From positions 1 through 27,707 of the IMG/VR virus record IMGVR_UViG_3300037228_000016: 27,707 nucleotides of DNA; one strand, written 5' to 3'. The DNA comes from a virus. A program made the position numbers and the translations under genes. The notes beneath the pieces are model-generated. The model was not told the origin of the DNA. It ran no database searches and saw only the letters and a list, made by a program, of their open reading frames with translations. Position 1 is the stretch's first letter. Every line of letters starts with the position of its first letter. Shown here one piece after another: positions 1-22,629 of this stretch.

Positions 1-547
1 CGCCCATACCAGCGCGAGCGTACACGCCGACGCTCGTAACGGCTTGACTTCCGCCATTCGCGCCCGCTGCACCCCCGCCCGGTCCGTAACCACCAGCGCC
101 ACCCCCGCCGCTACCGCCTGTGACCCCTGTAACACCGACGCCGCCCACACCACCATAAAGTGCTGGAAACGGGATATTTGCGCCCGATATAGAAGTATTG
201 CCGCCAGTGCCGCCCACACCATTAGCCGGACCAAATGTACCCGCAGCCCCAATCGTAATGGTAAGTGTAGCCCCCGGTGTCACGTTAAGCGGATAACCGC
301 TGACCGAAGCACCACTACCGCCTCCGCCGCCGCCAGCCGCACTAGTGGTAGCGCCGCCGCCACCGCCGCCGCCGCCAGCAGCAGTAGCATCAACAAAGAT
401 AACTGTCACATTCGCCGGAACGGTCCAGGTGTTAGCACCCGTCGAAGTGAATAATTTTGATGTTTGCGCATAAGCCGGAAAACCGACTTCGGCATGACAC
501 GGCGATGTTAGGAATAGCCCGAGAAGAAACGGGACAATCTTATTCAT
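1..547 (-). CDS. Glycine-rich secreted/fibre-like protein (3' end outside window)
   Basis: The frame is open from an ATG at 547 to the window edge, giving 182 codons without a stop. Residues 1-19 look like a Sec signal peptide: a basic MNK start, a hydrophobic FLLGLFL core and a CHA|E cleavage site. After it comes a TWTVPANVTV segment and then long Gly/Ala/Ser runs such as GGGGGGG. A 'TWTVP...' strand followed by polyglycine is the hallmark of the glycine-rich domain found in phage tail-fibre and surface proteins. The start overlaps the stop of the upstream gene (TGATG), so the two are probably translationally coupled. Adhesin or fibre is an inference. The signal peptide is unusual for a virion protein that assembles in the cytoplasm. 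Confidence 0.8.
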   Translation of the reverse strand, partial: MNKIVPFLLGLFLTSPCHAEVGFPAYAQTSKLFTSTGANTWTVPANVTVIFVDATAAGGGGGGGGATTSAAGGGGGGSGASVSGYPLNVTPGATLTITIGAAGTFGPANGVGGTGGNTSISGANIPFPALYGGVGGVGVTGVTGGSGGGGAGGYGPGGGAAGANGGSQAVTSVGVYARAGMG

Positions 548-1041
548 CACCAAATCCTGTAGGTCAGCTTATGGCCCGTAGTCGCGCAAAGGACATGGGG
601 AATCCCCGGCTTATAGGCATCGGGGGATTTTACCCAACCGCCGTTCGCTGGCAGAATATCGCCAGTGCTGCTCGTCGCCGCCGTGCCCTCTGATACATTG
701 CATACTTCGGCAGGATCGGGATTGGAGATCTGAAATCCGTTCGTCGGCGTAGCTAGCGTCTGATCGACGCCGCCAGTTGTGATTGTGATCTGAGAATATG
801 CACCAGGTTGCCCGATATTCACGCTGTCACTGCCACCGGCACCGCCGCCATCGCATATCTTTCCCGTCGTATCCATGAACGGGCCGCTCTGATTCCCGGC
901 GGTGAGCGTCGCCACCGAACCGGGGACGGTTCCGCAGGTCGTAACGATGATATATTGCGCGTGCGCAGGCGCGAGCAGCGCAAAGAAAAGCGCCGCAGCA
1001 AAAGCCGCAGCGCAAGTTAGGCGTGACCGATTCGCGATCAT
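547..1041 (-). CDS. Small protein with signal peptide, function unknown
   Basis: This 164-residue protein starts with a clear Sec signal peptide: basic MIANRSR, an Ala/Phe/Leu-rich core to about residue 24, and an AHA|Q cleavage motif near residue 28. The mature part is Gly/Thr/Ser-rich, with a CGTVP segment and a second Cys in KICDGGGAGG. An extracellular disulfide between them is possible. AAAGGA lies about 12 nt upstream of the ATG. Its stop overlaps the ATG of the glycine-rich gene. The order downstream of the capsid gene suggests a late protein, but I do not recognise the family. Confidence 0.75.
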   Translation of the reverse strand: MIANRSRLTCAAAFAAALFFALLAPAHAQYIIVTTCGTVPGSVATLTAGNQSGPFMDTTGKICDGGGAGGSDSVNIGQPGAYSQITITTGGVDQTLATPTNGFQISNPDPAEVCNVSEGTAATSSTGDILPANGGWVKSPDAYKPGIPHVLCATTGHKLTYRIW

Positions 1042-1056
1042 GCCGGGGGTGATCCT

Positions 1057-1680
1057 TTAGAAGTAACGGTACAAAATCGTCACGTTGATCGAAGCGCCGT
1101 CCGTCCAGTTGGTGTGCGCATTGAAGAAAATCTGCTGTGAGACGGGGCCGGTCGTTCCCGAGGTCGGAAACACGCGCTTGAGGATCGATGCGCTTGGAAT
1201 TGCGATAACACCGTTGGCGCCGACCGCATAGGCGGCGACGATCGTTTGATCCGATGAGCCGGCCACGCCAACGTCAAGGCCGCCGGTCACGGCGTTCCCG
1301 GTCGTTTCCTGGACGATAATTTCCTGGATGACGGCGTTCGCAGGAAGCACAGGAGAGTTGGACGTTGTGCTTTGCGCGGTGAATGGACCGGCGTAGAGCG
1401 CGCCGAGGCCGGCGCCGGCCGTAAAGCCTTGGCTTTTGAAATACGCCACATCCGCGAGGACCATGTTGGCGCAACCCTTGGCATTGAGGGTATATGAGCC
1501 GCCGCCGGTGGCGGGGTTGGTCACATATTTTGGGCCACTTAGCGCGGCGGATGACGCAGGAGCGCACATCTCTACGGCGTCGGTCGCGACAGAAGCAGCC
1601 GCGAAGGCCGACTGCGAGAATCCACCGATCGCCAGTACGGCAAGTCCGGCAAGTCCGGCAAAAAGAATGCGCTTGTTCAT
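1057..1680 (-). CDS. Protein with signal peptide, possible beta-rich surface protein
   Basis: The 207-residue protein starts MNKR, followed by a long hydrophobic core containing a short AGL repeat and an AFA|A cleavage site near residue 27. The mature chain is rich in Ala, Gly, Thr and Val and alternates hydrophobic and polar residues. It ends in ...NVTILYRYF, an aromatic C-terminus typical of beta-strand-ending surface or virion proteins. GAGGG sits about 9 nt upstream of the ATG, and the ATG overlaps the stop of the 146-residue gene (ATGA). It is the first of three consecutive genes with signal peptides. The family is not recognised; a secreted decoration or fibre-associated protein is inference. 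Confidence 0.8.
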   Translation of the reverse strand: MNKRILFAGLAGLAVLAIGGFSQSAFAAASVATDAVEMCAPASSAALSGPKYVTNPATGGGSYTLNAKGCANMVLADVAYFKSQGFTAGAGLGALYAGPFTAQSTTSNSPVLPANAVIQEIIVQETTGNAVTGGLDVGVAGSSDQTIVAAYAVGANGVIAIPSASILKRVFPTSGTTGPVSQQIFFNAHTNWTDGASINVTILYRYF

Positions 1681-2117
1681 GCTACGGCCCTCTGTCCGAA
1701 TTGCGGGTCACTTGCCCGCGCCCTGTTGAGACTGTCGGCTTCCGCCTCGGCCATCTGTTCGGCCTCGACCTGTGCCCGGCCCGGTTTCTGGCCGCGGCTC
1801 AAATCGAGCTTGTAACGATCCGGCTCGATTTCCATGGCGTGCCGGGCATCGACGCCCCACAATTCAACCTTGACCGGTCCACCCTTGATATCCTGCCAGT
1901 CGAGATAGGCGCGCTTGGCCGCCGCATAGTCGCGGAGCTGCTGCTTGTAGCGCTCCAGATTATCCTCGTGCTCGACCTGCGCAGCGGCAAGATCGGCGCC
2001 TTTTAGCTTTGTCGCATCCGGCTCTGGAGGCGGCTGCGGGGCTTCCGGGCGCTTCGGCCCGCAGTCCCACAGATCGACCTTGCCGTTGTTCTTGATCCGG
2101 CGTTCGAGCGTGTTCAT
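1677..2117 (-). CDS. Hypothetical charged late protein
   Basis: The product has 146 residues and is hydrophilic. The N-terminal half holds a Pro-rich stretch (RPEAPQPPPEPD) and an Ala/Glu/Lys helix-prone region at about 40-75. The C-terminal half (about 100-146) is Gln/Glu/Ala-rich and probably helical. An alternating 'PVKVELWGVDARHAMEIEPDRY' block resembles a block in the adjacent 183-residue protein ('PVAVQMDKIDADHAVNSDPKRY'). The two therefore look like distant paralogues or related domains. The start overlaps the upstream stop (AAATGA), with AAGG 3 nt before it. The operon position after the capsid gene suggests a head or structural accessory protein; the function is unknown. Confidence 0.75.
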   Translation of the reverse strand: MNTLERRIKNNGKVDLWDCGPKRPEAPQPPPEPDATKLKGADLAAAQVEHEDNLERYKQQLRDYAAAKRAYLDWQDIKGGPVKVELWGVDARHAMEIEPDRYKLDLSRGQKPGRAQVEAEQMAEAEADSLNRARASDPQFGQRAVA

Positions 2118-2665
2118 TTTGCCTTCTCTGCCCTGGCTTTGGCACGGTCGGCACGCTCAGTCGCCAGCTTTTCATCGCGCTCGCGCCGATGCTCGATTTC
2201 TTCCGGCGTTTCCGGGCCGAGCCGCTGCTCGATCTTGGCCAGCCGCTCCTCAATCGTCACAGGCGCGCGCAGGCCGCGCGGAACATGCACGTAGCGCTTG
2301 GGATCGGAATTGACCGCATGATCGGCATCGATCTTGTCCATTTGGACAGCGACCGGCTCTTTGTGCTTTTTGTGCCATTCGTCATGCTCGCGCTTGGCAA
2401 GCACGGTGGCGCGATTGTCAGCCTCGATCTCGGCATCGGTGCGCTCGCCTTTGATCGTCGGTTCGGCCTCCTTCGGCTCTGACGGGCCGCGGTCAAGAAC
2501 GATGACCTTGCCATTGGCGTACGCACGCGTGGCGGCGGCGATATGCTCGTCGGTGAACTCAGGCTTGTCATCGTCCGGCTCCGGCGAGGCCGGAGCAAAA
2601 GGCGCGGGGTTGGCGTGCTGAGGCCCATCTAAGGGCCGCCCGGTACGGGGATCGTACTCAGTCAT
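2114..2665 (-). CDS. Hypothetical highly charged late protein
   Basis: This 183-residue protein has a Pro-rich N-terminus (about 1-32), then a Glu/Lys/Arg/Ala-rich body. A strongly helical, lysine- and arginine-rich C-terminus follows from about residue 139 (EERLAKIEQRL ... KARAEKAK), which could be a coiled coil. The segment around residues 100-135 resembles the equivalent block of the next gene. Translation initiation is unusually well marked by a perfect GGAGGT 8 nt upstream of the ATG. It lies between the 160-residue capsid-adjacent gene and the 146-residue gene with only 3 bp or a 4-bp overlap separating them. The family is not recognised. Confidence 0.78.
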   Translation of the reverse strand: MTEYDPRTGRPLDGPQHANPAPFAPASPEPDDDKPEFTDEHIAAATRAYANGKVIVLDRGPSEPKEAEPTIKGERTDAEIEADNRATVLAKREHDEWHKKHKEPVAVQMDKIDADHAVNSDPKRYVHVPRGLRAPVTIEERLAKIEQRLGPETPEEIEHRRERDEKLATERADRAKARAEKAK

Positions 2666-2668
2666 GGG

Positions 2669-3151
2669 TTACACCTCCGGCAGGACGGCAAAGAAACCGT
2701 CAATGTTGATCGACGGGCTGGTGCCCCCCATCAGGACATAAACCGCGACGTATTCGTAAAGCGCACCCGCTACGTTGGTCGAGAACATGACCTCATAGCG
2801 CCCGGTGACGGCGGCCTTGGCGTTCACGATGTCGTTGGTGTTGGCCGCAGCCAGATCGATGCCGCCGACGCAAACCACGTTGCCCGCGCCGAACGCCGGA
2901 TCGGTGGAAGCCACCACGCGGATTTTGTAGTATTCGTCGCCGGTCACGATGTTGAGCGCCGTCACGTCGCAAACCGCAACCGCGTCGATGCGCGCAGACT
3001 GCACGGGCGATGTGCCCTGGTTGCCGCCGGAGTCCCAGATGGACTGCGCGCCGCCAACCTGAGTGTAGCCGTTCGCGGTGTACGCGGCAGCGTTGTCCGA
3101 AAAGAACAGGTTGATGTCGGGAGTGTAAGTGCGGTCGTTGGGGAAAGACAT
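2669..3151 (-). CDS. Probable head protein downstream of major capsid protein
   Basis: The 160-residue protein has no charge-rich or transmembrane segments and is beta-prone (many V, T, N, G, A). It contains segments such as DEYYKIRVVASTD and YEYVAVYVLMGG. GGAG lies 8 nt before the ATG, and the gene follows the major capsid gene after only 12 bp. A small beta-rich protein in this position is often a head decoration or stabilisation protein in tailed phages. That role is inferred from size and order only; I do not recognise a named family. Confidence 0.75.
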   Translation of the reverse strand: MSFPNDRTYTPDINLFFSDNAAAYTANGYTQVGGAQSIWDSGGNQGTSPVQSARIDAVAVCDVTALNIVTGDEYYKIRVVASTDPAFGAGNVVCVGGIDLAAANTNDIVNAKAAVTGRYEVMFSTNVAGALYEYVAVYVLMGGTSPSINIDGFFAVLPEV

Positions 3152-3163
3152 TCTGGTTGCTCC

Positions 3164-4123
3164 TTATGCAACGATCGCGGCGTTGGTCCACGAATCCAAA
3201 CGACTCAGGCAGTATTTATGCTCATCTACCATGCCGACATCCCAATTCAGGTGGGTGCGGAAGGTCTTGCCGTCTTGCAGAAGCCCAATGTCGCGGGCCT
3301 CCATCGGGCGAAGCTGCAAACCGCGCAGCCGCTGCTCGCCCATCGACACGACATAGAGCGATGCCGTGACCGCCGAACCGCCGCCGTTGCCGACTTCGGT
3401 AAAGTCCAGCATGTAGGGGTGATCGTCCTTCGGGTAGCCCCACAGGAAAGTCAGACCGGCGTAAGACGCCTTCAAACCGCCGACGCCGGCATTGCCCGAC
3501 ACGTCGAACTCCTGCATGACGAAACCGGATAGCGTCGTGGTGCGCGCCAACTGAATCCACAACGGGCGCGACAGGTAAGGCGCGATGATGTGGGTCGGGC
3601 GATTGACGGCGTTGATCGCCTTGTCGAGATTGGCGAGCGAAAGCGCGGCGCCGCCGGCCGACGTGGAATTGTGGATGTCGCGCGAGTATTTGTTGGCGCG
3701 GACCTGCAGACCGTTGAACACGCGGGCGTTAGTCGACTGATCGCCCTTGATGACGGTTGTCGCGAACAACTGGCCAAAGCCGGTCATTCCCATCATTTCC
3801 TCGTAATTGCGCCGCTCCGGCCCGTGACGATCGACAATCGCGCGGTCCACGTCGATGTCGTGATCGACGATCGCGGTGTTTTCCTGCAATGGCGTGATGG
3901 TGCCGTGTCCGGTGCTCGACGCCTCGTTGATGGCGCGGAATTGCGGAGTCGGCAGCACGGCCTGCCGGTAATACACGAACACCGAGCCTTTGAGGCCCTC
4001 GAACGGCAGCGCATCGAACAGATCGGTCGACTTCGCGAACATCTCGATCGGCGGGCGCCGGATGTCCTCCTTGGCCATGGACTTCGCGTATTCCGCGATC
4101 GTGATAAGGTTGGAAGCAGCCAT
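3164..4123 (-). CDS. Major capsid protein (putative)
   Basis: The product has 319 residues, no signal peptide and a balanced mixed alpha/beta composition. It follows portal and scaffold in the canonical order. The N-terminal region (about 1-60) includes MAKEDIRRPPIEMFAKSTDLFDALPFEGLKG. A central helical region with EEMMGMTGFGQLFATTVIKGD and a C-terminal domain with WNWD-type aromatic patterns (THLNWDVGMV) resemble podovirus-type capsid proteins annotated next to T7-type connectors. AGGGG lies about 10 nt before the ATG. I identify it mainly from position, size and general resemblance; no catalytic motif exists to confirm it. It would self-assemble on the scaffold around the portal. Confidence 0.78.
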   Translation of the reverse strand: MAASNLITIAEYAKSMAKEDIRRPPIEMFAKSTDLFDALPFEGLKGSVFVYYRQAVLPTPQFRAINEASSTGHGTITPLQENTAIVDHDIDVDRAIVDRHGPERRNYEEMMGMTGFGQLFATTVIKGDQSTNARVFNGLQVRANKYSRDIHNSTSAGGAALSLANLDKAINAVNRPTHIIAPYLSRPLWIQLARTTTLSGFVMQEFDVSGNAGVGGLKASYAGLTFLWGYPKDDHPYMLDFTEVGNGGGSAVTASLYVVSMGEQRLRGLQLRPMEARDIGLLQDGKTFRTHLNWDVGMVDEHKYCLSRLDSWTNAAIVA

Positions 4124-4142: not shown

Positions 4143-4937
4143 TTAACCCGCGCCATTCATGGAATGACGCTCGGCGTAATCTTTTTTCTCGCCGTAGGTC
4201 ATCTTGTCCCAGGTAGCATCGTCGACCTTGGCGCCGATATCGGCAGTGCGCCCGGTCTGCCGGAACATGCCGCCGCCCTGCGACGCAAAACGGGTAACCA
4301 GTTTCTCGGCGATTTCGATGTCGCGCGCCGTGAACATGCGTGATGCGAGTTGAGCACCCTCCTGGTCGCCGAGAATGGATTTGAAAAATGTGGTGATCGC
4401 GGTGACGCGCGCCGGCCCGGTAGTGCCAAGCTTGTTGACCTCGGCGAGGTGCGCGGTCTGGATCTGCTGCTGCGTCGCGACCTGCGCGCCGGCGTAAAGC
4501 CCGAGCAGTTTCGAGAAATTTTCCTGACTGATGCCCATCTCGTGCGCCATCGTGCGCGCCTGCGACAACAGCGGATCGTCCTGCTTGAACTCGAATTTGA
4601 TGCCTTCGGGTGCTTTGAAGTCGGCGGGAAGTTCGACTTTGTAGGCGTCCGGCGTCTGCGGACGCGAGAGCGCTTTCACATCCTCTGCGGCCTTGAATGC
4701 GACGTGCTCGTTGATGAAACTGGCGAGCGCCTTGTCGTCCTTCACCTTGCCGGCGGTCGCGTCCCAATACGATTCGGGAACATACTCGGGGCGAGCGACG
4801 CTAGGCTGCGGAGCCGGCGTCGGACTCGGTGTCGGAGCGGGCGAGGGCTGAGCGGATACGATTGGTGCCGCCGGCGCCGGAGATGGCGCGGGGGCCGGCG
4901 ATGGTAAAGGTGACGGCGGGCTCGGCGTGTCTGCCAC
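4143..4937 (-). CDS. Capsid scaffolding-like protein
   Basis: This 264-residue protein starts with GTG, preceded at 10 nt by AAAGGA. Residues 1-50 are a Pro/Ala/Ser spacer (repeated PSP and APAP units). From about residue 50 there is a YVPESYWD motif, followed by an acidic helical domain to about 230. The motif 'VPESYW...A..K.....', then 'SFINEHVAFKAAED', is typical of phage scaffold proteins lying between portal and capsid genes. The C-terminus (KKDYAERHSMNGAG) would be the capsid-binding tail by analogy. The whole Pro-rich spacer is coded in a stretch that also codes the C-terminus of the 115-residue upstream protein in another frame (4801-4937). Scaffold is inferred from domain style and order. 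Confidence 0.78.
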   Translation of the reverse strand: MADTPSPPSPLPSPAPAPSPAPAAPIVSAQPSPAPTPSPTPAPQPSVARPEYVPESYWDATAGKVKDDKALASFINEHVAFKAAEDVKALSRPQTPDAYKVELPADFKAPEGIKFEFKQDDPLLSQARTMAHEMGISQENFSKLLGLYAGAQVATQQQIQTAHLAEVNKLGTTGPARVTAITTFFKSILGDQEGAQLASRMFTARDIEIAEKLVTRFASQGGGMFRQTGRTADIGAKVDDATWDKMTYGEKKDYAERHSMNGAG

Positions 4938-5148
4938 TTTCGCGTATTCCTTTGGCCATCAGGCCCATCAATTCGGCGGCGAACTTGCGGCGACCCTCGT
5001 TTCTCTGCAACGCACGTTCAAGTTCGCTGTCGCTCGTGATGGCGCAGAGAACTTTCTGAAAATACAGGTAAAGCAGGCGGCCATCCTCGGTGCGTGCGAG
5101 CCGATCGATTGCCTTGACAAAATCCTCGCTGCCGATTTCCTCACTCAT
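4801..5148 (-). CDS. Hypothetical protein between portal and scaffold; C-terminus overlaps scaffold gene
   Basis: The 115-residue protein starts at an ATG that overlaps the portal stop (ATGA). Residues 1-75 are a compact, helical, charged domain (EDFVKAIDRLARTEDGRLLYLYF ... AAELMGLMAKGIRES). That style fits a small, conserved protein next to T7-type connectors. From about residue 76 the composition changes to low-complexity Ala/Gly/Ser/Arg, because this part shares DNA with the scaffold's Pro-rich spacer in a shifted frame. The scaffold's ribosome-binding site lies inside the codons for AKGIRES. The first 75 residues are very likely a genuine protein; whether the tail matters is uncertain. 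Confidence 0.72.
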   Translation of the reverse strand: MSEEIGSEDFVKAIDRLARTEDGRLLYLYFQKVLCAITSDSELERALQRNEGRRKFAAELMGLMAKGIRESGRHAEPAVTFTIAGPRAISGAGGTNRIRSALARSDTESDAGSAA

Positions 5149-6755
5149 GCCGCGGGCCCCGGCGGCTGGTCGGGTGCGCCAGCAACATGCCGGGCGCCGA
5201 CGAGTTGCGCCATTTGCGCCACTGCGGCCTTGACCTTATCGGGATCGCGCAGCTTGAGCAGCGTCACCCGCATCTTGTCGAGGATCGCCTTGATGCTCTT
5301 TTCGCCATCGATGTACATCTTGAACTCCTCAGGGAAGGCCTGCCCGAGTATCTGGATTGCTTTCACGGCCATGCCGACTTCCTGCTGTTCCGCTGCCGCC
5401 TGGGCCGGATTGCGCGGCATGGTCGCGACTGCGCGGCCATCGACCCGCACCGGCTGGATGGCGCCGCTCGCTTCCAGCAGATATTTGAAACGCAGAAAGA
5501 TTTGCGCCGGCCCCTCGCGCCAGAACGGCAGGCCGGGCGTGCCGATGCGGCGCTGCGCGCGTGCCATCTCGTCGAGCCATTGTCCGAGCGTCGGCGGGGT
5601 ATCGCCGTGCTGCTCCGGCATGTCGACAAAGAACAGCTTGCGCAGCGTTTTGATCTTTTCCTCATATTGATAGTTTGCCACCTCGGGCGACGGCGGCTTG
5701 TAGATCGGCTTTACGTCGTCCGCGGTGCCGGGGCGGATCGGGTAGGCCATGCCTTCCTCAACGCCTTGCTCGACATTGACAAAACTGTCGTCGGGGTAGG
5801 TGATCGGCGGATCGATCGACAATGCGCTGTGCTTGATCCGCATCCGCTCAAGCTCGTCGACCTGGCGCAGTGTCGGCAGGCTCTGCAGCAGCGGGCCGAT
5901 GCCGTGCGGCCAGTCCGCAGTCGGATTGAACCGCATCACCAGCAAGGGGCATACGCCTTCGCCCTTCAATTCGACTTCGTGTACGCAATCGAAATCGATC
6001 AGCACCACATGCTGCCAGACCTCATCGCTCTTGTCGTTCCACAACCGCCAGAAACCCCATGATACCTGCGCCCGATCGGCGGGCTTGTCATCGCAAGAGT
6101 CCTTATATTTCTGTGGAACCTTGGCCCATATTTCCTCGCCGACCAGTTCGCGGACATAGCTTTTGCGCGTATAGCGCACGGCAAACCGGTCATCGATTTC
6201 GCCGTAGGGGCCGAGATTGATTTCAAGCTCGCGGAGCGGGATTGCCGATACCACGATCGGCCGGGCCGGATGCGGGCGCTGCGCCCACATTCCGACCGTG
6301 CCAATGGCGAGATCGGGATAGAACGCCTTGGTGACTTCGGGGTAAAGGTTCGATGCCTTCATGGCGCCGAATATCCTGGCGTCATCCTTGCGGACATCGG
6401 CTTTGATCTTGTCCCAAACCCCGTCGGGAAGGTCCATGCCAGGGCCACGCTCGCACCACTCCTGCGCTTCCGGCATGAAAGTGTTGACGATCTCGGTGAC
6501 AAAATCCTGTGTCAACAGGAACGCCAGATCGGTATTGAGTTCCGGCGCGTCCAGCATCCGCTGCGTCGACGGCATTGTCATCGACGAAATCTGTCGCTGC
6601 CGGTTCGGCGCCGAGAAAAAATAGGCTTCCTTGATATCGAGTTCGACGTAGGATTTCCAGGTCCGGCACGCCGCCAGCCGTGCATAAGCCTCGGTGGCAA
6701 TTTTCGACGGTTCGCCCGGAATAAGCCGGTTTTCCGGCTGGCGATCGTCGGCCAT
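5145..6755 (-). CDS. Portal / head-to-tail connecting protein
   Basis: The 536-residue product matches the T7-type head-to-tail connector family in length and pattern. It has an N-terminal helical region (YARLAACRTWKSYVELDIKEAYFF), then WGFWRLW and a long central wing with PLLVMRFNPTADWPHGIGPLLQSLPTLRQVDELERMR. That 'R.....YG.GP...LPDI+.LN' style is the connector hallmark. After it come stem/crown helices and a Gln/Ala-rich C-terminus ending PDQPPGPAA. Twelve copies would form the DNA channel, bind TerL and later the tail. The start overlaps the stop of the 63-residue gene (TGATG). Identification is by recalled family pattern and gene order. Confidence 0.88.
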   Translation of the reverse strand: MADDRQPENRLIPGEPSKIATEAYARLAACRTWKSYVELDIKEAYFFSAPNRQRQISSMTMPSTQRMLDAPELNTDLAFLLTQDFVTEIVNTFMPEAQEWCERGPGMDLPDGVWDKIKADVRKDDARIFGAMKASNLYPEVTKAFYPDLAIGTVGMWAQRPHPARPIVVSAIPLRELEINLGPYGEIDDRFAVRYTRKSYVRELVGEEIWAKVPQKYKDSCDDKPADRAQVSWGFWRLWNDKSDEVWQHVVLIDFDCVHEVELKGEGVCPLLVMRFNPTADWPHGIGPLLQSLPTLRQVDELERMRIKHSALSIDPPITYPDDSFVNVEQGVEEGMAYPIRPGTADDVKPIYKPPSPEVANYQYEEKIKTLRKLFFVDMPEQHGDTPPTLGQWLDEMARAQRRIGTPGLPFWREGPAQIFLRFKYLLEASGAIQPVRVDGRAVATMPRNPAQAAAEQQEVGMAVKAIQILGQAFPEEFKMYIDGEKSIKAILDKMRVTLLKLRDPDKVKAAVAQMAQLVGARHVAGAPDQPPGPAA

Positions 6756-7360: not shown

Positions 7361-8854
7361 CTAGGCGGTCACGCGGCGCATGGTCTTTGGTCCATTGTAA
7401 ATGCGCACGGGTTTAACATTCACACTCGGTCGCAGGCCGATCATGCGGCGGCCCTCGCCAAGCCCGATCATACCGTATTGCAGGCAGTCGCACAGATTCG
7501 AGTATTTGTCTTTCTTCGGCCTCAACTCGCCATCCTCCTCGCGCACCAGATGATAACGCCCGGCCATGCCGACGATCAGCGTGCGGCAGAGCGGCGAGAT
7601 TACAAGGCGATTGATGCCGGAGGGATTGTCGTTGAGCGCATAGGCCACGGCCTCGGTGCGCTCCTCGATGTTGTTCATCTTCACCGGCGCCGGTGTGACG
7701 TGCATCCCATGATGCTTGAAAATGTCGTAGCTCGACTGTTCGGTCTGCTGGCCCTTGTCGCGGCCCTTCGGATCGCCGATGCAGCGAAACGAGTGATCGC
7801 GATAGTGCGTTTCCAGAAACCGCTTGACCTTCGGCGCGAACACCGACGCCGGTTCGTTGAAGCCAAGCATTTCGTACTGCACATAAATACGCTGGTTGAC
7901 CTGCTGAGCAAACAACGCCGCCGGATAGACGCGGCCAAAGTCGAGCCATACCAGAACTTCGTGGTTGGCGACCGGATGCAGCGTTTCACGTGAAACATGA
8001 AACTCGCGGCGGAACATCGGCCACACCGGCTGGCCTTCGACCACCAGCGCGACCTTGTTCATCAATCGACTATCGATCCATGCCTTCGACGGCGCCCCGG
8101 TAAGTTGCTCGTCGTAGTAACCGAGCGGCAGGTTTTTCAGGTTCTCCGCTTCTGGATTGACCGAGTAGCCGACAATAGAGCCGCGCTCGTCGCGCTTTTC
8201 GATCAGCGCCGGCGGCTGCAAGTGAAATCCCCACGATTCCGGCCAGTGATATTTCGCGATCTCGTCGGCAAAAAGTCCCTGCGGCAGCTCGACCTGTCCG
8301 GTCATCATTGCCAGCCAGTGATCCTCGTCCGGCGCGTTGGTGTCGGCAATCACGCCACGCCACGGATTAGGACCGCCATGCTCCGGCGCCGGATAACGCA
8401 ACCGTGACCGCGCTTCGACAAACAGTTCGCGAATGATGAACGCCAGTTCGTTGAACGCGATGCCGGTGTATTCGGTCGAGCGCAGCTTGCGCACGTCCTC
8501 GTCCTTGTCGAGCGACAGAAAATCCACCACGGTCTCGACATCGCCGAATCGAATGCGGTGCTGCATGACCGCGCCATACGTGAAGCGCCCGTACACACTC
8601 TCGGGAAAAGTCTCCAGCCAGGTGCGGATCGTGGTGCGCCGCAAGTCCGGCATGGTGTTGCGCACCACCGCAAAGCGCGTGCGGCGCACGCCATCGACCG
8701 GCGACGGCACCTGTTCCTGCGCATGCCGCATGATGCGGACGCAAAGCGCCTTGGTCTTGCCGGAGCCGAGCGGTCCCTGCAGCACATCAACGCTGCGGTT
8801 GGAAGTAACAAACTCCGCGACCTTCGTGCCACCGATGAAGTCGAACGCGCTCAT
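7361..8854 (-). CDS. Terminase large subunit
   Basis: This 497-residue packaging motor combines an ATPase and an RNase H-like nuclease. The Walker A motif GPLGSGKT is at 27-34. Walker B with the catalytic glutamate (GIAFNE) is at 131-136. An arginine-rich region (VVRNTMPDLRRTTI) follows Walker A, and coupling-type ADTNAPDEDHW lies at 170-180. The nuclease half shows the acidic triad: D305 in LVWLDFG, D361 in IGDPKG and D456 in NLCDCLQYG. Length and motif order are normal. Its ATG overlaps the stop of the 88-residue gene, and the TerS-like gene lies four genes upstream in the same operon. It cuts concatemers and pumps DNA through the portal. Confidence 0.95.
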   Translation of the reverse strand: MSAFDFIGGTKVAEFVTSNRSVDVLQGPLGSGKTKALCVRIMRHAQEQVPSPVDGVRRTRFAVVRNTMPDLRRTTIRTWLETFPESVYGRFTYGAVMQHRIRFGDVETVVDFLSLDKDEDVRKLRSTEYTGIAFNELAFIIRELFVEARSRLRYPAPEHGGPNPWRGVIADTNAPDEDHWLAMMTGQVELPQGLFADEIAKYHWPESWGFHLQPPALIEKRDERGSIVGYSVNPEAENLKNLPLGYYDEQLTGAPSKAWIDSRLMNKVALVVEGQPVWPMFRREFHVSRETLHPVANHEVLVWLDFGRVYPAALFAQQVNQRIYVQYEMLGFNEPASVFAPKVKRFLETHYRDHSFRCIGDPKGRDKGQQTEQSSYDIFKHHGMHVTPAPVKMNNIEERTEAVAYALNDNPSGINRLVISPLCRTLIVGMAGRYHLVREEDGELRPKKDKYSNLCDCLQYGMIGLGEGRRMIGLRPSVNVKPVRIYNGPKTMRRVTA

Positions 8855-17558: not shown

Positions 17559-18677
17559 TCAAATTGCTTCATCTATCACGCGACCCATTGCATAGGATGG
17601 CGTGTAGCCTGGAAGGCGGTTGCCGGTAGGCCGAATAAATCGGAACAACGAATCGCGAGCACGGCCGTCAATCTGTCCGCCGCTCTTGCGCCAGTGGAAG
17701 ATGAAGGGCCGCACATCTGGGTCGAGCGTCGCAAGCGCGAGGCCTATTTCCTTGTCGGGCTTTTCGGCATACTTATCCGCCACCTGAGCCACTTTCTGGG
17801 TGATTTCCTCAATGCGCTCGGACAACTTCGATGTGATAGCATCGAAGTCGCCCCAGAACTCCTCGGGCAAGTCACGGCGGATCGCACCCATGTCATCGCC
17901 TGCCTGCATGGCTTCCCACATAGCTAGAGGCGTACAGCGCGAAATAAGGGAATGGATGCGCTTGTATTCGTCGCCCTTGAGCTTCAATCGAAGCCCATTA
18001 GCGAAGCGAACAACAAAACCCTCCTCGGTGGCCGGCAAAGTTTTTGCGTAGCCAGCGAGGTCTACAAAGGACGTGAAGGCATAGCGCTTTGCGACGCGCC
18101 AGCCGACCATACCGGCGACTGTTTCCAATTGATCGAAGGTCAATTCACTACCGTCTTGGCGATAGGCGCCGAGCATGACCAACTCAGGCTTGGAATAATG
18201 AACCACAATACGGTTTTCGGGAAACACGGCCTCGGTCAGGTAAGTTGTGCCTTGATCCAAGGGACGTAGATCGGCGCTCTCGATAAACTGCTCGGCCCAT
18301 ACTGCCTGTGACGATTCAAACGCGCCCTTGGTTGCAGCGCGCCATTTACCGTCGAAATAGTGGAGGATCGCAAGCGAACCATCGACCTTTTCAAAGGCCT
18401 CGAATGGAAGATCAGGAATCGTGCCGTTGTGTTCGCCGGCATTGAAAAACTTGGTGAAGGGCGTCGCAATGACTTCCTGCCGTTCTGGGTGCAGGATTAG
18501 CCCGCGCGCCATAAGTGAAAATTCATTCCAGCCGTCATCGTGAACGCAGCTTTGTGAATAGACGTAGAGCGCCCTGCCGGTTTTCGGATCATCCTTGCGC
18601 ACAACGATGCCCGCTGTCCGCGCGGCTTCAAGGCCAGTGTATAGCTGTCCGAACGGCATTGATCGTGCTGGATGCAT
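17559..18677 (-). CDS. T4 Rnl1-like RNA ligase
   Basis: The 372-residue protein has the ATP-dependent RNA ligase motifs in order. The upstream RGLILHP...VIATPFTKFFNAGE precedes motif I, EKVDGS, with the adenylated lysine at about 97. YLTEAVFPENRIVVHYSKPELVMLGA follows (motif III region). Motif IV is EGFVVRF and motif V is LRLKLKGDEY. The C-terminal 140 residues are helical, as in Rnl1. It would seal 5'-phosphate/3'-OH RNA ends, classically tRNA cleaved by host anticodon nucleases. No polynucleotide kinase/phosphatase is in the window. The start could instead be GTG 15 bp upstream, which overlaps the preceding stop (GTGA). Confidence 0.88.
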   Translation of the reverse strand: MHPARSMPFGQLYTGLEAARTAGIVVRKDDPKTGRALYVYSQSCVHDDGWNEFSLMARGLILHPERQEVIATPFTKFFNAGEHNGTIPDLPFEAFEKVDGSLAILHYFDGKWRAATKGAFESSQAVWAEQFIESADLRPLDQGTTYLTEAVFPENRIVVHYSKPELVMLGAYRQDGSELTFDQLETVAGMVGWRVAKRYAFTSFVDLAGYAKTLPATEEGFVVRFANGLRLKLKGDEYKRIHSLISRCTPLAMWEAMQAGDDMGAIRRDLPEEFWGDFDAITSKLSERIEEITQKVAQVADKYAEKPDKEIGLALATLDPDVRPFIFHWRKSGGQIDGRARDSLFRFIRPTGNRLPGYTPSYAMGRVIDEAI

Positions 18678-20865: not shown

Positions 20866-21652
20866 AACGGCCACTGCTGAACACGTCGAGGCGACGATCG
20901 CCACCGAAGCGCCGGCTGCGCAGCTTCCGGCCGTAGTGCGGCAGGAGCGCCGGCCGCGCGTAGCCTCGCAGAAGGCGCCGCAGTTTCCTGCGGCAATCGC
21001 CAAGTCAATCCTCGCGGTATCCCGCGACATCGGCGAGATCGCCAAGGAAGGCATCAATACCTTCCAGAAATATCGCTATGTGAAGTGGGAGGACATCAAC
21101 CAGAAGCTTTCGCCGCTCCTGTCGCAGCACGATCTCATCATCGTGCAATCCGAGATCAGCCGCAGTCTGCTTGAGGAAAATGCGCAAGGTTCCGTGCTGG
21201 CGATTGTCTATCACTTCACGATCGTCAATGGCGATGGCGAGCAATGGCCGCCGGTCGAATGGACCGGGATCGCGCGGCTGCGCGACAGCAAAGGCGTGTC
21301 CGACGACAAGGCCGCCACGAAATGCCATACCCAGGCGGAAAAGTATTTCTGCATCAAGCAATTCAAAATCCGCGTGGAGGATTCCGACCCGACCGACCGC
21401 GCGCACACGCTCCCGAAGAAAGACGCCCGTGAGCTTTATAGCAAGCTACAGGCTGAGATCGACGAGGCGCAATCGGCAGTCGAGCTCGGCATGTGGGGCA
21501 AGGAGCCGGGAAATCTCACGCGCAAAAAAAGCCTGCCCCCCGATTGGCAGGACATCATCACCACGCGCTACAACGAGAAGCTTTCCGAACTGCAAGGCGG
21601 CCCGAAAGTCATTTGGGACGATCCAGACCCAGAAACCGGCGAGGTCGCGTGA
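20858..21652 (+). CDS. erf-like: ERF-family single-strand annealing protein
   Basis: The product has 264 residues. After a Pro/Ala-rich 45-residue N-terminus, the ERF core runs from about 46 to 165. It has ILAVSRDIGEIAKEGINTF, then YRYVKWEDINQKLSPLLSQHDLIIVQSEI, then YHFTIVNGDGEQWPPVEWTGIARL and KAATKCHTQAEKYFCIKQFKI. The 'Y.YV....+...+.P.L..H.L', '...DG' and 'G.+.TYA.KY.L...F.+' elements are the family signature. It anneals complementary strands in phage recombination. The C-terminus (PGNLTRKKSLPPDWQ and after) is a variable tail. GGGAG lies 8 nt upstream of the ATG. Confidence 0.88.
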   Translation: MAETATAEHVEATIATEAPAAQLPAVVRQERRPRVASQKAPQFPAAIAKSILAVSRDIGEIAKEGINTFQKYRYVKWEDINQKLSPLLSQHDLIIVQSEISRSLLEENAQGSVLAIVYHFTIVNGDGEQWPPVEWTGIARLRDSKGVSDDKAATKCHTQAEKYFCIKQFKIRVEDSDPTDRAHTLPKKDARELYSKLQAEIDEAQSAVELGMWGKEPGNLTRKKSLPPDWQDIITTRYNEKLSELQGGPKVIWDDPDPETGEVA

Positions 21653-22629
21653 TGCTTGTATCCGAACTGATCGCGTCATACCGCACCGATCCGGTGTCGT
21701 CCTATAAGACTTTGCGTTTCAGGACGCGGGAACACTACGATTCCCTGCTCAAGCGCGTGGAGGCTGATCTTGGCGACAAGCAGATCGGCGACATTCGCAC
21801 CCGCGATGTGACGCTGACCTATCAGGCGTGGACGCTGCGTGGTGTCTCAATGGCTCACGCGCTAATCGGCATGGTGCGAACGCTCTGCAACTACGGCAAC
21901 GTCTATCTCGAAAACGACGACTCCATGAGGCTTGCCAGCCGATTGCACGCCATGCGGTTCAAGATGGGCAAGCCACGGCAGTCTCACATCACGGCTGAAA
22001 TGGCGACCGATCTTCGGCAACATGCACGCGATTGGGGTCTGTACTCGATCGCTCAAGCGCAAGCGTTTCAGTTTGAATGTACCCTGCGGCAGCGCGACTG
22101 CATCGGGGAATGGATTCCGACTACCGAGCCCGGCGAGTCCGACACTTTTGATGGCGACTTCAAATGGCTGCGCGGTATCCGCTGGGAAGAAATCGACGAT
22201 CAGTTGATCCTTCGCCATGTGACCAGCAAGCGGCAGAAGGAAGTCGAAATCAATCTGACGCTCGCGCCGATGGTCATGTCAGAGCTTCGCCATGATTTTC
22301 TGATCGTAGAACCCGGCAAGCGCGACCGTCTGCCCAAGAGCGGCCCCGTCATCGTTTCTGAGGCCACGGGGCTTCCGTTCAACGCTTGGGAGTTTCGCAG
22401 GCTATGGCGCGGCTTGGCACGACGCTGCGGCATTCCCGATACTACATTTTCGATGGACACGCGCGCCGGGGCGATCACGGAAGCGTTTAGCTCCGGTGCC
22501 GCTGCGGACTCGGTTCGCAAGTCGGCGACGCATTCCGACCTCTCGACCACCAACCGCTACAGCCGTGGCGACGCAGAAGCCATTGCCGAGGTCATGAGAT
22601 CGCGGGCAGCACTTAGGAGCGCGGGATGA
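21652..22629 (+). CDS. int: Tyrosine recombinase / integrase
   Basis: The ATG at 21652 overlaps the ERF stop (TGATG) and gives 325 residues. Residues 1-110 contain a SAM-like core-binding domain (YDSLLKRVEADLGDKQIGDIRTRDV). The catalytic domain has R148 (TLRQRDCIGEW), K193 (VTSKRQKEV), R271 (FSMDTRAGAITEA), H294 (SATHSDLSTT) and Y303 (NRYSRG). The box II His of the usual HxxR is Met/Asp here (MDTR), a variation I have seen in rhizobial phage integrases. It would insert and excise the prophage. No att site was recognised nearby, and the gene sits inside the early operon rather than at an end. Confidence 0.88.
   Translation: MLVSELIASYRTDPVSSYKTLRFRTREHYDSLLKRVEADLGDKQIGDIRTRDVTLTYQAWTLRGVSMAHALIGMVRTLCNYGNVYLENDDSMRLASRLHAMRFKMGKPRQSHITAEMATDLRQHARDWGLYSIAQAQAFQFECTLRQRDCIGEWIPTTEPGESDTFDGDFKWLRGIRWEEIDDQLILRHVTSKRQKEVEINLTLAPMVMSELRHDFLIVEPGKRDRLPKSGPVIVSEATGLPFNAWEFRRLWRGLARRCGIPDTTFSMDTRAGAITEAFSSGAAADSVRKSATHSDLSTTNRYSRGDAEAIAEVMRSRAALRSAG

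Follow-up and report, generated by a model that had tools for sequence, protein, structure and literature searches.

Why would genes in the structural operon of a tailed phage encode proteins with export signals? The assembly of tailed phages is generally regarded as an entirely cytoplasmic process. The question is raised by a stretch of viral DNA of 27,707 bases, called here the window. On its minus strand, structural genes for terminase, portal, scaffold and major capsid protein form a podovirus-like operon, followed by three small genes and by the three genes that we call A, B and C (Table 1). The first-pass annotation had placed Sec-type leaders on three genes at 1-1680. All three leaders are present, on the minus strand, and are of the Sec / signal peptidase I type. 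Among the 50 called genes of the window, A, B and C are the only ones flagged as leader-bearing by a rule-based predictor. Each has a positive n-region, a hydrophobic h-region and small residues at -1 and -3, with a Shine-Dalgarno-like stretch upstream of the ATG.

Table 1. Positions of the genes and sequence features of the window that are discussed in the text.
Feature	Position	Strand	Description
Gene C, cut by the window edge (182 aa read)	2..547	-	Leader and glycine-rich tail-fibre-like domain, PF21722; phrog_863
Signal peptide of C, residues 1-19	491..547	-	Predicted cut between ...SPCHA and EVGF
Gene B, 164 aa	547..1041	-	Leader; mature part with 4 cysteines
Signal peptide of B, residues 1-28	958..1041	-	Predicted cut between ...APAHA and QYII
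Gene A, 207 aa	1057..1680	-	Leader, 43-aa module, jelly-roll-like domain; conserved protein of the phage group, predicted to be exported
Cys39-to-Cys70 stretch of A	1471..1566	-	Both Cys invariant in 19/19 aligned A proteins
Signal peptide of A, residues 1-27	1600..1680	-	Predicted cut after Ala27, between ...QSAFA and AASV
Leaderless gene, family c0	1677..2117	-	Directly upstream of A
Leaderless gene, family c0	2114..2665	-	
Leaderless gene, family c3	2669..3151	-	Adjoins the capsid gene
Major capsid protein (MCP)	3164..4123	-	PF20911 GP7; phrog_212
Scaffold / capsid assembly protein	4143..4937	-	
Portal	5145..6755	-	PF12236 head-to-tail connector
Terminase large subunit	7361..8854	-	
Tyrosine integrase	21652..22629	+	PF00589

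The leader calls come from a home-made predictor. It was benchmarked on 41 E. coli K-12 genes, whose classes (secreted, membrane or cytosolic) we assumed from the gene names. All 6 secreted proteins or lipoproteins among them were recovered, along with 3 false calls, ybgE, tolA and ybhI, which we take to be N-terminal membrane proteins. With residues 2-45 shuffled, the pass rate was 409/2000 for A, 900/2000 for B and 211/2000 for C. Of 4000 composition-preserving shuffles of the first 45 residues, 781 still passed. The predictor is mostly a composition test, and by itself it proves little. The shuffle control failed to discriminate and was not used as evidence. As shuffles often pass, the case beyond chance rests on clustering, conservation and cysteines.

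Relatives were found via the major capsid protein of the window. Viral contigs yielded 40 loci and bacterial genomes a further 5, the latter including Bosea sp. BK604 and Microvirga sp. KLBC 81. The capsid gene of one relative (L025) was masked by a wrong antisense gene call. A megablast search with 24 kb of the window returned 0.1-kb methyltransferase matches in Xanthomonas phages only, and no closer named relative. The PF12236 portal indicates a short-tailed, podovirus-like virion, and the phage is probably temperate, since an integrase gene is present. Gene order in the relatives is mostly fixed and runs scaffold, capsid, c3, c0 (1-2 copies), A, variable cassette, tail-tube genes and internal virion proteins. 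We term "slot" the stretch after the capsid genes and before the tail-tube genes; its variable cassette is rich in leader-bearing genes. Beyond the cassette, the operon of the relatives continues with tail-tube, internal virion, fibre and lysis genes. As C is cut by the window edge, it cannot be taken to be the last gene of the operon.

Some further features of the window and its relatives were recorded. The minus-strand early region of the window encodes an RNA ligase of the T4 Rnl1 type (17559-18659; PF09511, 7e-13). In one relative, the capsid gene and c3 are separated by an inserted HNH endonuclease gene, which also matches an AP2 domain weakly (L002:1689-2183). Lastly, one prophage-like contig (L047) belongs to a MAG labelled as an actinobacterium (Salinibacterium FW300_bin.11). 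The phage group is otherwise alphaproteobacterial, and this contig is probably mis-binned.

As for the distribution of leaders, 12 near-complete related records have them in 30 of 44 slot genes and, counted apart, in 10 of 10 intact fibres. The core virion genes have none (0/131, Fisher p 5e-29), and 24 of the 541 other genes have one. The remaining 14 of the 44 slot genes are leaderless, and in one record (G004) the slot encodes a tail-like protein without a leader, although the fibre of that genome has one. Export is therefore not required for every appendage. We considered and rejected N-terminal membrane anchors, as 34 of 39 mature leader-bearing proteins have no further membrane-like stretch. 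Genes for SAR endolysins or spanins were rejected too, the lysis enzymes being separate genes after the fibre.

Among the leader-bearing tail-fibre-like proteins of the relatives is the gp17-type fibre, of which each genome has one and which begins, in its mature form, with a tail-attachment domain. In near-complete records, the leader-bearing fibre is found at the position of T7 gp17, between the internal virion proteins and the lysis genes, with the exception of G013, where it sits in the slot. A tblastn match (1e-6, 37%) shows its N-domain to be homologous to that of the Mwe-JY08 fibre, which is leaderless. Exactly one gene with this N-domain is present per record, in 12/12 near-complete related records, and if it were not the virion fibre, no homologous fibre would be left. 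The leader is present on 11 of these 12 fibres, counting that of G001 after hand correction of its start, and is absent in G015. A leader-blind gene caller gave leader-bearing fibre starts in 10 of the 12 records. In a scan where the choice of start codon was partly guided by leader score, 47 of 51 fibre loci have a leader. The predicted cleavage site lies before a conserved Gln, with A in 44, S in 2 and G in 1 of the 47 sequences at -1, and A in 40, V in 5 and S in 2 at -3. The 4 leaderless fibres begin with Met at the cleavage point of the others (M-ALSPVPSLPN, against QAPPPVPALPD after the A at -1).

We modelled the mature N-domain of the fibre (185 aa, pLDDT 74). The model matches the fibres of LME-1 (9efk, Z 9.4), T7 (7ey9, Z 8.3), HRP29 (8es4, Z 8.1) and Kp9 (Z 7.0), and T7 gp17 in 7boz with Z 7.4 and an rmsd of 1.9 over 66 residues. 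The mature N-terminus models as a tail-attachment domain of the T7 gp17 type. The Pfam T7 tail-fibre model, PF03906, was found in 0 of 20 records, with no match in the scanned fibres, and a PDB sequence search with the fibre profile gave chance matches only. With PF03906 negative, the identity of the fibre rests on the homology to the Mwe-JY08 fibre and on the fold matches. We consider it highly likely that this protein is the virion fibre of the relatives.

A tree was built from 56 N-domains, and in it the four fibres of the outgroup, none of which has a leader, split off at 97/96 support. At least 4 changes of leader state are needed on this tree, whose bootstrap is not settled and which contains long branches. 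Among 397 sampled genomes of one order, the fibre N-domain is present in 4, with a leader in 1 of the 4 (G382) and an ambiguous start in L145. The fibre of L129 has 9 cysteines despite lacking a leader. The window has no fibre gene of its own, and the case for the fibre rests on the relatives.

Gene A was called in 24 loci, the window included and some of them near-identical, and its leader was flagged in 24/24. The 43-aa module spans residues 47-89 and the jelly-roll-like domain residues 90-207. Few columns are invariant across 19 aligned A proteins, among them Met1, Ala27 (the -1 position), Cys39 and Cys70. The cut given by the predictor differs from Ala27 in four loci (L019, L020, L022 and L031). 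From the alignment, we propose a disulfide between Cys39 and Cys70. A search of 50,697 phage records gave no match to A, and neither A nor B has a significant family in Pfam or PHROGs. Residues 85-207 of A match the jelly-roll capsid cement proteins KHP30, GP4 and Pam1 at Z 8.0-8.5, a range in which chance matches do arise, and the resemblance of the C-terminal domain to these proteins is borderline. The known cement proteins of this kind (Pam1, GP4, KHP30) have, to our knowledge, no leader.

Some variation is found around A. In sister phages (L013-L018, L023) it is replaced by c19, which has no leader, repeats the 43-aa module three times in tandem and lacks the conserved cysteine pair; L020 has both c19 and A. 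Another leaderless protein, c35 (L013, L015, L016), combines three tandem A modules with a C-terminal phage tail-protein family (phrog_5939, 7e-27). The 43-aa module may be a virion-anchoring repeat. A is absent from the outlying relatives L040, L043, Mwe-JY08 and L049-L051.

In terms of the cassette, the reading of C as a glycine-rich, fibre-like protein was borne out by PF21722 (Gly_rich_2), with 35.4 bits against a cut-off of 24.3. A 95-kb phage of another kind (L044:9395-11123) encodes a leader-bearing protein 87% identical to the C-terminal half of B, and this B-like protein is followed by a leader-bearing homologue of C. Given this pair, the exported adhesins seem to be passed on together from one phage lineage to another. 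In many loci the cassette consists of several leader-bearing genes in a row, with four in L006, four in L025 and three in L024. One of the three proteins in L024 has 956 aa and 20 cysteines. Proteins of the relatives that are predicted to be exported include right-handed beta-helix, weak arabinofuranosidase-like and GDSL hydrolase-like proteins. In the cassette slot of one relative there is an O-antigen ligase-like gene (L007:4021-5100; PF04932, 3.7e-9), for which surface conversion is possible.

Other leader-bearing genes were observed near the fibre and the lysis genes. A GDSL/SGNH hydrolase-like protein is encoded directly before the fibre in G016 (L079:16733-18088); the sequence MNRRELLAGAAMLAGAGQANA, which precedes its called start, resembles a twin-arginine leader. 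Two leader-bearing genes come after the lysis genes, in G001 (L052:6712-7509) and G010 (L061:3697-4479), the latter with no Pfam match. The start of both (AADLPLK) is, we assume, like that of alphaproteobacterial porins. They are possibly Lom-like outer membrane proteins.

The number of cysteines was counted in mature leader-bearing proteins. It is even in 36 of 38 fibres, in 28 of the 30 cassette proteins having any cysteine, and in 19 of 19 A proteins, the last being non-independent events. Among the controls, even numbers are found in 10/35 MCP, 16/34 portal, 14/30 terminase (TerL) and 8/23 c3 proteins, in 8/26 and 12/24 of the tail-tube proteins TTPA and TTPB, and in 9/22 leaderless slot genes. 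The fibre count left out 4 near-identical and 7 incomplete fibres, and three of the 51 fibre loci (L107, L115 and L117) were missed by the pattern used to collect fibres for it. With one protein per sequence cluster, the counts are 29/31 for fibres and 20/22 for the cassette. The fibres of L037 and L039, counted as both fibre and cassette, were excluded from the per-cluster cassette count. The absence of this parity from core proteins points to disulfides and real export, as an oxidising compartment would select paired cysteines.

The sequences show the leaders, their conservation and restriction to these genes, the paired cysteines and the attachment-domain fold of the fibre. Judged from these sequences, the leader-bearing proteins are very probably exported. 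The reading that we favour, with some confidence, is that A, B and C are part of the adhesion apparatus of a temperate Hyphomicrobiales phage with a short tail, and that this apparatus is exported and then mounted on the tails at lysis. The core parts (capsid, portal, tail tube and internal proteins) would be made leaderless and would remain in the cytoplasm. The adhesion parts would be A, the fast-changing cassette including B and C, and the gp17-type fibre of the relatives. These would cross the inner membrane by Sec, have their leader removed and form disulfides in the periplasm. Lysis would mix cytoplasm and periplasm, and the appendages would dock on the released particles via their N-terminal attachment domains. 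P22 tailspikes attach to finished particles in vitro, which makes docking outside the cell plausible.

We infer that the proteins are indeed exported and that they are mounted on the virion when the cell lyses; the parts of this reading differ in strength. That docking takes place at lysis seems somewhat probable. We also lean towards A, B and C of the window itself being virion appendages, and not host-surface proteins. The strictest form is a split-compartment virion, with the whole adhesion apparatus built in the periplasm and the particle infectious only once lysis mixes the compartments; on this form we are evenly divided.

The first-pass annotation had suggested, as an example, a role at the host surface. 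Export is indeed the most likely fate of the three proteins and is unusual for genes inside a structural operon; a host-surface rather than a virion role is less well supported, the leaders of the relatives being on proteins with tail-fibre features. Under such a role, the exported proteins would block superinfection, mask receptors or alter the adhesion of the lysogen, and would be absent from the virion. Leaders and even cysteines suit any exported protein, the phage encodes an integrase, and for part of the cassette the O-antigen ligase-like gene in the slot of one relative fits as well. Lom of lambda is also leader-bearing and located among tail genes (PMC12309495). Still, the mature end of the fibre is a tail-attachment domain, in the sole such gene of each of 12 records. 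The tail-fibre and glycine-rich domains and the late-operon site between capsid and tail-tube genes also speak for the virion. We regard an exclusive host-surface role as unlikely, and superinfection block explains less than export followed by mounting.

Export and virion could also be served by two forms of the same proteins. One part would be exported to bind receptors, or to spread or strip surface polysaccharide, and a leader-retaining or internally initiated form would enter the virion. Some leaders do contain internal Met codons, and the slot mixes leaderless and leader-bearing adhesins, but in most fibres, judged by eye, the stretch from the leader to the mature end offers no start codon from which a leaderless form with an intact attachment domain could be made, and such dual use seems decidedly improbable. 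The beta-helix, weak arabinofuranosidase-like and GDSL hydrolase-like exported proteins of the relatives would suit secretion before lysis, with free depolymerases or adhesins acting at a distance to clear or coat biofilm and aid the spread of progeny. This leaves the attachment domain on an exported fibre and the missing second fibre unexplained, and we give it very little credence. Finally, the supposed leaders could belong to virion proteins that merely have a hydrophobic N-terminus and never leave the cytoplasm, as the frequent passing of composition-preserving shuffles would allow. Such a false prediction is extremely improbable given the invariant Ala at -1 in A, the A/S/G at -1 in 47/47 fibre sequences, the even cysteines absent from core proteins, and leaderless orthologues that start at the cleavage point.

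Export followed by mounting can be set beside known systems. Fibres of the T7 gp17 type (T7, HRP29, LME-1, Kp9, PhiM1) have in common with those of the relatives the N-terminal attachment fold and the position after the internal virion proteins. The fibres of the relatives differ in the Sec leader directly before the attachment domain, in their 6-20, mostly even, cysteines and in having no PF03906 sequence match. Microcystis phage Mwe-JY08 and the prophages of Microvirga sp. KLBC 81 and Bosea sp. BK604 share the homologous N-domain and the gene order, but their fibres have no leader and few cysteines, and protein A is missing. Bor and Sie-type proteins of lambdoid prophages are, we assume, phage-encoded and leader-bearing like A, B and C. 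Together with Lom, they are presumably not virion fibres, lack a tail-attachment domain and are usually single genes rather than a whole adhesion set. Secreted endolysins (the fOg44 signal-peptide lysin and SAR lysins) are late phage proteins on the host Sec route (PMC6116005). These are lysis enzymes, unlike A, B, C and the fibre as proposed virion parts.

The domains themselves are of known kinds, namely the gp17-type attachment domain, the glycine-rich domain, the beta-helix and tail-fibre repeats. For a Sec leader on a tailed-phage fibre we found no report in the literature searched, which largely omits subscription papers and preprints, nor did we find an experiment on the export, proteomics or structure of the proteins described here. 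A Sec leader conserved exactly before the attachment domain in dozens of genomes, together with paired cysteines, makes the rule of cytoplasm-only assembly testable. If our reading is true, there would be a new assembly step tied to lysis and a route to disulfide-stabilised adhesins. Export would permit disulfide-rich adhesins that are unable to fold in the cytoplasm, and particles before lysis would be non-adsorbing. Furthermore, host-range proteins of soil alphaproteobacterial phages may then be overlooked, or annotated as secreted host proteins.
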